In this document: positions 11,189 to 25,918 of the stretch, piece by piece
Position numbering within the stretch: the stretch's first letter is position 1
Layout of the letters: every line of letters starts with the position of its first letter
NCBI GenBank assembly: GCA_023701135.1
Contig: JAMPXP010000011.1
Span: 124,001 to 188,000 of the forward strand
Direction: 5' to 3'
Length of the DNA stretch: 64,000 bases
Source: Desulfobacula sp.
GTDB lineage: Bacteria > Desulfobacterota > Desulfobacteria > Desulfobacterales > Desulfobacteraceae
Notes under the pieces: model-generated
What the model was told of the DNA's origin: nothing
Databases searched by the model: none
The model's input: only the letters and a program-made list of their open reading frames with translations
Position numbers and translations under genes: made by a program

Positions 11189-13014
11189 TGAAACTTCAAG
11201 GTGTCAATGATTTTGTGATCCGGTTTGCCAATGTGAACGGCTCGGGCTCGGCCAGCGCCAATGCCCTGTTTGCCAAATCCGTGTTCCGGCTGGGGGTGCC
11301 GGTGAGTCCCAAAAATATTTTTCCTTCCAATATCCAGGGCCTGCCGACCTGGTATGAGGTCAGGATCAATGAAAAAGGGAATCTGGGCCGCCGGGGGGGA
11401 TATGATGTTGTCGTTGCCATGAACGGGCAGACCTTGAAAAAGGATTATGAAGACCTTGCGCCGGGCGGGTATTTTATGTACGACTCGGCCCGGCAACTGC
11501 CGGCGGATTTTGCCCGGGACGATATCACCCTCATCGATATGCCCCTGACCCAGATCTGCAACCGGGAATTTGAGGACCCAAAGCTCCGGCAATTGCTGAA
11601 AAATATTGTCTATGTCGGGGCCCTGGCCCATTTGTTTGACATGGAATTCTCCATTCTGACCGATTCCATCCTCAGCCAATACAAAAAAAAGCCCAAACTG
11701 GGAGAGCCCAATATCAAAGCCCTGGAACTGGGATTTGAATATGCGGCCGCACATTTTCAGGACACCTGCCAACTGAAGGTGAAACGCAGCAACACGCTGA
11801 CCCGCCATATCCTCATGGACGGCAACACGGCCACGGCCCTGGGGGCCCTGTACGGGGGAGCCACCGTGGCGGGCTGGTATCCCATTACGCCTTCCACCTC
11901 CGTGGTCGAGGCCTTTGACCGGTTCACCGGCCAATACCGGAAGGATGAGTCCGGGAAAAAAAAGGTGGCCATTCTTCAGGCCGAAGACGAGCTGACGGCC
12001 CTAGGCATTGCCCTGGGCGCATCCTGGAACGGGGCCCGGGCCTTTACCGCCACATCGGGGCCCGGCATCTCCCTGATGAATGAATTCCTGGGCCTGGCTT
12101 ATTTTGCGGAAATCCCGGTGGTGCTCATCGATGTCCAGAGAACCGGGCCCAGCACGGGCATGCCCACACGGACCCAGCAATCGGACATTCTCCTCTGCGC
12201 CTATGCCTCCCACGGCGACACCCGGCATGTCCTGCTCTTTCCCTGTGACCCCAAAGAATGCTTTGACATGACGGCGGACGCCTTTGATCTGGCGGAACGG
12301 CTCCAAACCCCGGTCATCATCATGAGCGATCTGGACCTGGGCATGAATGACCATATCTGCCTGCCCCCGGAATGGGACGACGCCCGGACCTACGACAGGG
12401 GAAAGGTCCTTGACGGGAACCAGCTTGAATCCCTGACGGAAAAATGGGGACGGTATCTGGACAAGGACGGGGACGGTATCTGTTACCGGACAATTCCGGG
12501 AACCCACCCCAAACTGGGCTCCTATTTTACGCGGGGATCTTCCCATGATGAATTTGCGGCCTATACAGAGGACAGCGACACCTATCAGCGGATCATGCTG
12601 AGGCTGGGCAAGAAATGGCAGACGGCCAAAGGCCTTGTGCCGAAGCCGGAGATTCAAATTTCCGATGCCGGGAGCGGTTACGGGGCCGTCTTTTTCGGCA
12701 CCAGCACCCAGGCCTCCCGGGAAGCACTGGAAACGCTTCGCTCACAGGGGATCATCATCAATACCATGCGTCTCCGGGGCTTTCCCTTCCAGGACGAGGT
12801 CAGGGAGTTCATTGACCGGCACAACACCGTCTTTGTCATTGAGCAGAACCGGGACGGCCAGATGCGGACCCTCCTGATCAACGAATGCGCTATCCGGCCG
12901 GACAAACTGGTCTCCGTCACCCATTTCGACGGCCTGCCCATCACTGCCGGGCATATTTCGGCTTCCATACAACAGATACTGAAACCTCAAACACAGAAAG
13001 GAGGCGCCCAATGA
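11188..13014 (+). CDS. 2-oxoacid:ferredoxin oxidoreductase, fused gamma-alpha subunit
   Basis: 608 residues. ATG 11188 overlaps the TAA of the previous gene by one base and has AGGGGGAAA before it. Residues 1-190 form the gamma domain (NGSGSASANALFAKS), then the alpha pyrimidine-binding domain begins at DGNTATALGALYGG with the family WYPITPSTS motif. Together with the next gene it oxidatively decarboxylates a 2-oxoacid to its acyl-CoA with ferredoxin as acceptor. The gene set resembles 2-oxoglutarate (Kor-type) and phenylglyoxylate-type enzymes that carry an FAD subunit. 2-oxoglutarate is favoured because acetate-oxidising relatives need it for the citric acid cycle, but the substrate cannot be read directly. 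Confidence 0.82.
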   Translation: MKLQGVNDFVIRFANVNGSGSASANALFAKSVFRLGVPVSPKNIFPSNIQGLPTWYEVRINEKGNLGRRGGYDVVVAMNGQTLKKDYEDLAPGGYFMYDSARQLPADFARDDITLIDMPLTQICNREFEDPKLRQLLKNIVYVGALAHLFDMEFSILTDSILSQYKKKPKLGEPNIKALELGFEYAAAHFQDTCQLKVKRSNTLTRHILMDGNTATALGALYGGATVAGWYPITPSTSVVEAFDRFTGQYRKDESGKKKVAILQAEDELTALGIALGASWNGARAFTATSGPGISLMNEFLGLAYFAEIPVVLIDVQRTGPSTGMPTRTQQSDILLCAYASHGDTRHVLLFPCDPKECFDMTADAFDLAERLQTPVIIMSDLDLGMNDHICLPPEWDDARTYDRGKVLDGNQLESLTEKWGRYLDKDGDGICYRTIPGTHPKLGSYFTRGSSHDEFAAYTEDSDTYQRIMLRLGKKWQTAKGLVPKPEIQISDAGSGYGAVFFGTSTQASREALETLRSQGIIINTMRLRGFPFQDEVREFIDRHNTVFVIEQNRDGQMRTLLINECAIRPDKLVSVTHFDGLPITAGHISASIQQILKPQTQKGGAQ

Positions 13015-14063
13015 GTTCCCCCCGCCCGGGTTTCCGCCACCCCGACCTTCCCAAAAACGATCTGGGGTATACGCGCCGCGATTACGAAGGCGCCGCCTCC
13101 ACCCTCTGCGCCGGGTGCGGCCATGATTCCATCAGCAACGCCATTATCAACGCCTGCTTTGAGCTGTCCTTGGAACCCTCCGGGATTGCCAAGATGTCCG
13201 GCATCGGATGTTCTTCCAAGACCCCGGCCTATTTTCTCGGAAAATCCCACGGATTCAATTCGGTCCACGGCCGCATGCCCTCCATTGCCACCGGGGCCAA
13301 TATGGCCAACCGGGACCTGGTGTATATCGGCGTCTCCGGTGACGGGGACACAGCCTCCATCGGCATGGGGCAATTTGTTCATATTGTCCGGCGCAATCTC
13401 AACATGGTCTATATCGTTATGAACAACGGCTGCTACGGCCTGACCAAGGGACAGGATTCGGCCACGGCGGACCGGGGCTCCGCCGGCAAGAAAGGCCGGC
13501 CCAATCCCTTTGAATCCATTGATCTGTGCGAACTGGCCATTGCCCTGGGTGCGGGGTTCGTGGCCCGAGGATTTTCCGGGGACAAGGAACAGCTCGTTCC
13601 CCTTCTGAAAGCGGCCATCGGGCACAGGGGATTCGCCCTGGTGGATGTCATCTCCCCCTGTGTGACCTTTAACAATACGGCCGCTTCCACCAAAAGTTAC
13701 CAGTGGGTCCGGGATCATATGGAGGCCACGGCCACATTCGATTTTATCCCGCCCCGGAAGGAAATCACCACCCAATATGAAAAAGGAACCACCCAATCCG
13801 TGACCCTGCACGACGGCGGGGTGGTCCATCTTCACAAATGCGACGAATCCATTGACGTCACCCGGCGGCGGTGTGCCATTGATGCCTTGGAGCAGCATCG
13901 GGAAAAGGGCCGGCTCCTGACAGGCATCCTTCATATCAACGAGACCCTCAAAGACACCCATGAGATCCTTGAAACCACGGAAACCCGGCTGAATACGCTG
14001 ATGGAAAAGGATCTCTGCCCCGGAAACCGGGTGCTTCAGGATATGATGGAAAATTACAGATAG
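13011..14063 (+). CDS. 2-oxoacid:ferredoxin oxidoreductase, beta subunit (thiamine diphosphate binding)
   Basis: 350 residues. ATG 13011 overlaps the previous stop (ATGA) and has the site AAAGGAGGCGCCC. The thiamine diphosphate motif runs from GDGDTASIGMG to MNNGCYGLTKGQ, and CAGCGHDSISNA near residue 39 is the usual start of the beta domain. Cys residues here do not form a full ferredoxin motif; the clusters are probably on the FAD subunit. The three tightly coupled genes indicate a single heterotrimeric complex. Confidence 0.85.
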   Translation: MSSPRPGFRHPDLPKNDLGYTRRDYEGAASTLCAGCGHDSISNAIINACFELSLEPSGIAKMSGIGCSSKTPAYFLGKSHGFNSVHGRMPSIATGANMANRDLVYIGVSGDGDTASIGMGQFVHIVRRNLNMVYIVMNNGCYGLTKGQDSATADRGSAGKKGRPNPFESIDLCELAIALGAGFVARGFSGDKEQLVPLLKAAIGHRGFALVDVISPCVTFNNTAASTKSYQWVRDHMEATATFDFIPPRKEITTQYEKGTTQSVTLHDGGVVHLHKCDESIDVTRRRCAIDALEQHREKGRLLTGILHINETLKDTHEILETTETRLNTLMEKDLCPGNRVLQDMMENYR

Positions 14064-24954: not shown

Positions 24955-25128
24955 TTTTCCTCCTGAAAATATGGTAATTATATTTTATTCTTAAATTAGC
25001 TTCAATATAGCTGTAATATAATTGACAGCCCCTGTCAATCAAAAACTGGGTTGACGCCCTCCTTTGACCACGGACCGGCCCATCCCAATTTCTAGCCCAG
25101 GCAAAGGATTCAAGCTTGGATATAAAAA

Positions 25129-25157
25129 CCCCCCTGTCATGGCCTCTGGCAGGGGGG
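25129..25157 (-). terminator. Rho-independent terminator of the rhodanese gene
   Basis: On the minus strand, an 11-bp stem (25157-25147 with 25139-25129, one G-T pair) with a 7-base loop is followed directly by TTTTTATA. It lies 18 bases after the stop at 25175, which supports translation continuing past the in-frame TGA at 25292-25294. Confidence 0.8.
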
Positions 25158-25174
25158 TGAAACTCAGTCAGCCG

Positions 25175-25489
25175 TTAAAGCGGAAAACCTGCTCTTTTCC
25201 AGGCCTCCACGCCTCCGTCCAGGATTTTGACGTTCTTGAATCCAAGATCCCTGTAGTGTGCCGCCGCACCTGCGGCAGTACCGCCGGACTTTCAGTTGCA
25301 ATAGAAAAAGATCTCCTGATCTTTATTCAGTTCCCCAATTTTTGATTGAAATTCAGTAAATGAAATCGCGCCTTCCAAGGGGAAGGTCTTAAATTTCTCC
25401 TCATCCTCATAGGCACATACCAGCAGTGCTGATTTTTGCCTTATTTTTTCCCTGATTTCAGGGGCTGAAACACTTTCAACGTCCATCAT
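25175..25489 (-). CDS. Selenocysteine-containing rhodanese-like sulfurtransferase
   Basis: 104 residues if the in-frame TGA at 25292-25294 (codon 66) is read as selenocysteine. Before it lie the N-terminal rhodanese strands and IFFYCN; after it, the same frame continues with SGGTAAGAAAHYRDLGF, NVKILDGG and VEAWKRAGFPL and ends at TAA. This is the C-terminal half of a rhodanese. The active-site loop thus reads YCNU, matching CNC-type relatives. A hairpin with loop AGGT starts 13 bases after the TGA. AGGAGATCATA precedes ATG 25489, and the gene lies 9 bases downstream of a 139-residue partner gene. Confidence 0.82.
25261..25278 (-). promoter_or_regulatory. Candidate SECIS hairpin of the rhodanese gene
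   Basis: On the minus strand, CTGCCGC and GCGGCGG pair over seven bases (one T-G) around an AGGT loop, starting 13 bases after the TGA. Position and loop fit a bacterial selenocysteine insertion element. Confidence 0.55.
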
Positions 25490-25498
25490 TATGATCTC

Positions 25499-25918
25499 CT
25501 AAGGAAATTTAATGGATATTTTCCGGTTGCCGTTTTTATTTTTGATGCTGATGCTCAGGTCAAGGCTTGAATCCCGGATGCCCATGGCAAATCGGGTTTT
25601 TCCGTCATCGCCGTCAATATGGGTCATCTCCCTGACGGCTTCAAAAATATTGGCCCCAACCGCGGGACCGGGTGAAGGCAGTTCGGTATCCCGGTATTCC
25701 GCCATTACGGATACGGTTCCATGATCATCCTGCCGGATGGATATTTCCTTTGCATTATTGTTTACGCCGTGAAGCACGCTTAATGCCAGCCATTTCAAAG
25801 CAGCATCAAGGCGGTTTCCATCATTTTTAAGTTCCGACATTTCCTTGAGCGGATCTGTGGTTGAAAAGCAATCACAGAGTTCCTGCACTTTTAAATGTAA
25901 ATTTTCAGTATCTTTCAT
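25499..25918 (-). CDS. Hypothetical protein, partner of the selenocysteine rhodanese
   Basis: 139 residues from ATG 25918, which follows ACAAGGAGACAAAGAC. It contains no Cys at the C-terminus, only a CDCF motif near residue 14, and has an all-beta C-terminal half (TRFAMGIRDSSLDLSISI). I recall similar hypothetical proteins in Desulfobacteraceae but no named domain. The stop TAG overlaps the rhodanese ribosome site, so the two genes are translated together. Function unknown. Confidence 0.6.
   Translation of the reverse strand: MKDTENLHLKVQELCDCFSTTDPLKEMSELKNDGNRLDAALKWLALSVLHGVNNNAKEISIRQDDHGTVSVMAEYRDTELPSPGPAVGANIFEAVREMTHIDGDDGKTRFAMGIRDSSLDLSISIKNKNGNRKISIKFP

Follow-up and report, generated by a model that had tools for sequence, protein, structure and literature searches.

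The closest described kind of protein to the one considered here is the rhodanese-like selenoprotein of form 3 with the pattern CxU, which is listed in Table 1 of PMC13188914 and represented by the family model NF041203 (rhodanese_LYCAU). The locus at hand is a minus-strand gene within a 64,000-nt stretch of DNA that was analysed as a whole (the window). Like the members of NF041203, its predicted product has a rhodanese domain with a Cys-x-Sec active-site loop, here C64-N-U66. Members of NF041203 have kept the motif D[VIL]R and possess an N-terminal hydrophobic stretch (20 loci), whereas the window family carries VC[AI]Y instead and, in all members seen except for L161, is without the hydrophobic start.

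Two further kinds of described selenoproteins resemble predicted relatives of the window protein that read FYUGU and contain more than one Sec. TsoB (NF045694, form 5) is likewise rhodanese-related with more than one Sec, but it is similar to a rhodanese/DsbD fusion with the spacing UxxxxU, and its model of 572 positions is much longer than the window protein, which reaches 18.9 bits against a cut-off of 805. Prx-like selenoproteins of the UxxU type, as presented in PMC2398784 and PMC13188914, also combine two Sec in one redox motif, but differ in fold and spacing from the FYUGU relatives, which would carry UxU in a rhodanese loop. Among rhodaneses without Sec, GlpE of E. coli (1gmx) agrees with the window protein in fold (TM 0.80) and in its length of about 105 residues, but has one loop cysteine, Cys65, together with Asp-Ile-Arg, and neither CxC nor CxU in place of the Cys-x-Sec of the window protein.

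Against NF041203 the window protein scores 51.4 bits, below the curated cut-off of 115, and 14 relatives from the window family range from 38.9 to 70.7 bits. Furthermore, both families form separate clades at 100/100 (9 NF041203 rows). Due to this score and the separate clade, the window protein is placed, as judged from sequence, in a sister family of NF041203 with a similar Cys-x-Sec loop and not within NF041203 as drawn by NCBI. NF041203 was found over its cut-off in 67 of the 389 genomes of the class, 19 of which are also among the 45 holders of the window family.

Gene structure and predicted fold

Starting from the ATG at 25489 on the minus strand, the frame comprises 65 codons, a TGA at 25294-25292 (codon 66), 38 further codons, and a TAA at 25177-25175 (Table 1). 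The preliminary description had noted this single interruption of a rhodanese frame, and the same frame was recovered here. If the TGA is read as C, the read-through protein matches the Pfam family Rhodanese (PF00581) with 43.6 bits (gathering score 22.2), and the match covers residues 33-99 on both sides of the TGA. In the ORF list based on the standard code, the window rhodanese appears with 65 residues. Annotation by the standard code ends the protein at this point, and the forms with two Sec would presumably be cut likewise.

Table 1. Positions of features in the window and loci of the double-selenocysteine relatives.
Feature	Position	Strand	Basis
Coding region of the predicted selenocysteine rhodanese (104 residues including Sec66)	25178..25489; stop TAA 25175-25177	minus	frame, Pfam match, relatives, dN/dS
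In-frame TGA, predicted Sec residue 66	25292..25294	minus	TGA at the same column in relatives
Cys64 codon (CNU motif, two residues before Sec66); TGA in FYUGU relatives	25298..25300	minus	translation, relatives
Cys25 codon (VCAY); column of Asp in GlpE Asp-Ile-Arg	25415..25417	minus	alignment
SECIS-like hairpin CTGCCGC-AGGT-GCGGCGG	25261..25278	minus	7-bp stem, covariation, model conditions
Likely intrinsic terminator 3' of the rhodanese	25128..25158	minus	GC-rich hairpin and T tail, folding
AGGAG, similar to a Shine-Dalgarno site and overlapping the upstream stop codon	25496..25500	minus	read from sequence
Upstream 139-residue gene, P0002	25499..25918, stop included	minus	no known family; adjacency in 4 genomes only
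Predicted double-Sec FYUGU rhodaneses	L088-L101 and L026-L045		one conserved hairpin

The active-site motif of the window rhodanese reads FFYC64-N-U66. An AlphaFold2 model built from 37 relatives, with Sec written as Cys, has a mean pLDDT of 88.6. Its best PDB matches in Foldseek are largely rhodanese-domain proteins, with 3tp9 and 6mxv first, and the TM value of 0.80 for GlpE stems from the same comparison. In the profile alignment Sec66 falls on Cys65 of GlpE, which we take to be the catalytic residue of that enzyme, whereas in the alignment with 6mxv the YC falls on column 64; the classical catalytic position is thus assigned to column 66 by GlpE and to column 64 by 6mxv. V24, C25, and Y27 are invariant in the 37 aligned rows of the window family. 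The Asp-x-Arg stretch of GlpE is absent from the window protein, where Cys25-x-Tyr27 aligns with it. This motif matters for sulfurtransferases; membership in Pfam Rhodanese does not depend on it. Since an N-terminal extension is not visible in the window rhodanese, the protein is probably cytosolic.

Downstream of the gene, a strong terminator had been pointed out before, and a GC-rich hairpin followed by a run of T was indeed located there (−19.8 kcal/mol, z −2.98). It is absent from the list of a simple terminator scan, most likely because its loop exceeds the limit of the scan.

Decoding of the in-frame TGA

The TGA is very probably read as selenocysteine, because the required machinery is present in the host, the TGA and the sequence downstream of it are conserved, and a SECIS-like hairpin covaries among the relatives. 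All four genes that had been suggested as a check, selA, selB, selC, and selD, occur in the host assembly (4.8 Mb in 42 contigs; completeness 98.87%) with scores over the curated cut-offs, namely 612.9 bits for selA, 352.9 bits for selB, 369.8 for selD, and 76.8 for tRNA-Sec (selC). Contig C18 carries selB at 11962-13857 and the rhodanese at 149178-149489, and selA, selD, and the tRNA-Sec gene are situated on other contigs. The host selD gene (L017, G000:C39:8198-9124) contains an in-frame TGA itself.

Co-occurrence with SelB was considered and rejected as evidence, since SelB is too common in the class and discriminates little: selB exceeds its cut-off in 323 of the 389 class genomes, and 45 of the 389 hold the window rhodanese family (E 1e-12). 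SelB was found in 24 of 24 good genomes with this family, but likewise in 189 of 201, and 6 of the 45 holders (G079, G216, G250, G315, G363, and G383) are without SelB at the threshold used.

Considering the 86 genomes of the host's family, homologues with a single TGA were observed in G034, G032, G081, and G041 with 86%, 77%, 58%, and 53% identity, respectively, and in all of them the TGA occupies the same column. A homologue in G035 (L025, G035:C170) changes frame in its middle part, either as a pseudogene or through an assembly error, and was excluded from alignments and counts. The 37 loci from named genomes comprise 21 with C-x-TGA, 14 with TGA-GGN-TGA, one all-Cys form (CAC; L085, from a Planctomycetota MAG), and one that ends before the site (L102). 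Of the two search patterns, one extended across the site and had Cys in place of Sec, a bias that is directed, if anything, against the Sec forms. L102 was excluded from alignments and trees, and L085 from SECIS counts and the codon test. In the comparison of 43 family rows, 22 CxU, 20 UGU, and one CAC were counted, i.e., the in-frame UGA falls on a conserved redox position that is occupied by Cys or Sec in the homologues. The earlier statement that many relatives have CNC was not borne out, as CNC occurs in none of these 43 rows.

For the stretch after the TGA, dN/dS of the three pairs formed by the window gene, L066 (Desulfobacula sp. S20.Bin121), and L067 ranges from 0.08 to 0.16, and from 0.06 to 0.10 if the hairpin is omitted. 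Such values imply that this predicted part of the protein is still selected as protein and is under purifying selection. If the TGA were a true stop, the gene would be either a decayed rhodanese (pseudogene) or would encode a truncated protein of 65 residues, in agreement with the length of the standard-code ORF and with the frame shift in the middle of the G035 homologue. This is very improbable in view of the purifying selection past the TGA (0.06-0.16), the presence of TGA in 21 CxU and 14 UGU of the 37 named loci as opposed to one all-Cys form, and the covariation of the hairpin behind it. A sequencing or assembly error has a practically negligible probability: the window represents one assembly, but the same codon is TGA in the other assemblies L066 and L067 and in 19 further CxU loci. 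Recoding of the TGA as tryptophan was rejected, since the column holds Cys or Sec, with Cys in L085. We consider it highly likely that the window protein is a single-domain rhodanese selenoprotein of a Desulfobacula-like bacterium of the Desulfobacteraceae.

A conserved hairpin downstream of the TGA

According to the bacterial SECIS model as given in PMC13188914, a loop of 3-9 nt is expected 16-37 nt after the UGA on a stem of 4-16 bp, with a G in the first two loop positions and with an additional free-energy condition. The hairpin with the loop AGGT that had been described 13 bases past the TGA was located at 25278-25261. Its loop (AGGU) is situated 20 nt past the TGA, and its spacing, loop, stem, and G position agree with the PMC13188914 model. 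An alternative register, pairing 25277-25272 with 25264-25259, is the one common to the relatives.

Across the 22 CxU sequences, 82.5% of the hairpin cells are paired, compared to 76.2% after shuffling, and 1 of 500 shuffles was as high. Including the 14 UGU sequences (36 in total), 92.1% are paired versus 75.4% in the shuffled sets, with 0 of 500 shuffles reaching this value, and covariation amounts to 0.406 versus 0.129; these shuffles ignore kinship. Registers that were slid along the same 36 sequences reach at most 68.1% pairing and a covariation of 0.219. The central pair of columns, 30-42, at which both partners are third codon positions, is occupied in the 22 CxU sequences by UA (12), CG (7), GC (1), UG (1), and another combination (1). 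The predicted RNA hairpin behind the TGA is thus kept by compensatory changes.

Folding-energy tests do not clearly set the hairpin apart, whereas covariation does, as does synonymous conservation among the UGU genes. Compared to dinucleotide shuffles, the folding energy of the window hairpin is unremarkable (z −1.37), and for the window an equally good fold resulted from synonymous recoding in 57% of the trials, with 5 of the 43 rows reaching ≤0.05. Synonymous conservation of the 22 CxU genes is slightly raised at codons +4 to +10 (0.53 versus 0.43).

Relatives with two predicted selenocysteines

The FYUGU form, encoded by TGA-GGN-TGA, occurs in 22 of the 86 genomes of the host's family and is absent from the window's own genome. 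Trees and codon test included 20 of these 22 genes (L088-L101, L027, L028, L029, L031, L033, and L038), the others being L032 (G065) and L045 (G072, partial). The 20 genes form one clade (100/99), which is the sister form to CxU. One of them, L091, comes from the cultured Desulfospira joergensenii DSM 10085.

In these 20 genes, codons +6 to +10 past the second TGA display 0 synonymous differences between rows with the same residue, compared to a mean synonymous identity of 0.51 (sd 0.165) in the 78 columns outside +4 to +10. This stretch was chosen after looking at the data (+4 = 0.30, +5 = 0.38) and is still the best window of the gene. The hairpin loop of the UGU genes is located 21 nt after the second UGA and 27 nt after the first, both within 16-37 nt, and a second run of invariant codons was not seen in the 20 genes beyond +6 to +10. 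Because the loop is in range of both UGAs and no other invariant run was observed, a single hairpin seems to serve both UGAs, which start six bases apart. FYUGU genes would represent a natural case for one SECIS and SelB decoding two UGAs at this distance.

Two in-frame TGAs are also found outside the FYUGU clade. Of 15 further places with two TGAs, 11 were fetched, including 10 of the 14 listed over the NF041203 cut-off. The latter 10 genes (L152-L160 and L162) read YUAU, YUDU, or YUTU. L160, a UxU member of NF041203, continues into a CxxCH-rich, multihaem-like stretch. L161 is of the window type, reads FYUAU, and has a hydrophobic extension at its N-terminus. To account for Cys or Sec at the first position, a tree of 74 rows built with both site columns masked requires six changes, five of which are forced by well-supported branches; the rows of this tree were chosen, not sampled, its columns are few, and gains are not told from losses.

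A rhodanese with UxU or with two Sec was not found in the papers searched, although the O. algarvensis selenoproteome paper or a database annotation may mention one, and UxU is not among the rhodanese forms 1 to 5 listed in Table 1 of PMC13188914 (2026 inventory). The UxU relatives are a small but real extension of the known Sec rhodaneses. Taken together, we lean towards the interpretation that the VCxY/CxU proteins constitute an undescribed selenoprotein family in which the active-site pair has alternated repeatedly between Cys-Sec and Sec-Sec, and that in the Sec-Sec forms one SECIS would recode two UGAs to yield a diselenide rhodanese. Interchange of Cys and Sec in one fold and within one bacterial class would offer a direct test of the chemical effect of a second selenium.

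Proposed function

In the mechanism envisaged for the window protein, SelB would bind the hairpin and bring Sec-tRNA to the UGA at 25292-25294. Sec66 or Cys64 would then take up sulfane sulfur (from persulfide, polysulfide, or thiosulfate) or react with peroxide, and the Cys64/Sec66 pair would resolve the loaded or oxidised state as a selenenylsulfide. Cys25, which is invariant, may take part as well, and a diselenide would form from the corresponding pair of the FYUGU relatives. It is tempting to speculate that the protein is an enzyme of sulfur transfer or redox chemistry that works fast and can be re-reduced, acting via Cys64/Sec66, and not a classical one-cysteine rhodanese, a proposal that we put forward tentatively and at somewhat less than even confidence. 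The gene neighbourhoods of the rhodaneses contain no cluster common to the family and none pointing to a substrate. Besides the upstream gene, the window locus, L066, and L067 have in common two genes of 392 and 378 residues, which appear thiolase-like and dehydrogenase-like by eye.

The main rival on function is the delivery of selenium to SelD, in which the Cys64-Sec66 loop would carry Se as perselenide or selenopersulfide instead of handling sulfur. PMC10298544, citing Ogasawara 2001, mentions rhodanese as forming a protein selenopersulfide with selenite and GSH, and a Sec-type SelD is encoded in the host genome. Selenium delivery is nevertheless unlikely, considering that the rhodanese is unlinked to the sel genes and that the family occurs in 45 of the 389 class genomes, compared to 323 with selB, so that the rhodanese is not generally needed. 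For the window rhodanese, a possible partner protein had been suggested in the preliminary description, namely the product of the upstream gene.

The upstream gene

The upstream gene terminates with a stop codon at 25499-25501, 9 nt before the ATG of the rhodanese, so the tight spacing is real. Its 139-residue product has no match in Pfam and NCBIfam at E values up to 1. Members of this protein family (window 25502-25918, minus strand) mostly display CDC[FY] followed by DPLxEMS near the N-terminus, and a structure model from 3 sequences has a pLDDT of 59.4. Homologues were identified in 16 of the 86 genomes of the host's family and in 90 of the 389 class genomes.

A dedicated system of the rhodanese and the 139-residue protein would be consistent with the 9-nt spacing, the Shine-Dalgarno-like site overlapping the stop codon, and the adjacency of both genes in G000, G032, G034, and G035. 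Both genes also co-occur, with the 139-residue gene in 26 of the 45 rhodanese holders versus 64 of the 344 other genomes (odds ratio 6.0, kinship ignored). Its co-occurrence with NF041203 is as strong, with an odds ratio of 7.4, likewise without kinship correction. Furthermore, 26 genomes of the class contain both genes, but adjacency was observed in only 4 of them; in the remaining 22 they are located on different contigs or far apart, although contig breaks could hide a link in fragmented assemblies. In 12 of the 16 host-family genomes with the 139-residue gene, it is not situated beside a window-type rhodanese. With these distributions a two-protein system is improbable, the proposed functional partnership is not upheld, and the 139-residue gene is judged to be a lineage-specific neighbour.

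The neighbours of the 139-residue gene were compared for 22 loci (16 of the host's family and 6 more of the class) and are varied, being common only to some close pairs. Neighbouring ORFs were included from at least 70 residues, a procedure blind to the TGA-cut rhodanese, and adjacency was judged from the gene places instead. Elsewhere in the window, the minus strand at 18477-18546 matches a group II intron model of Rfam (50.2 bits, gathering score 40).
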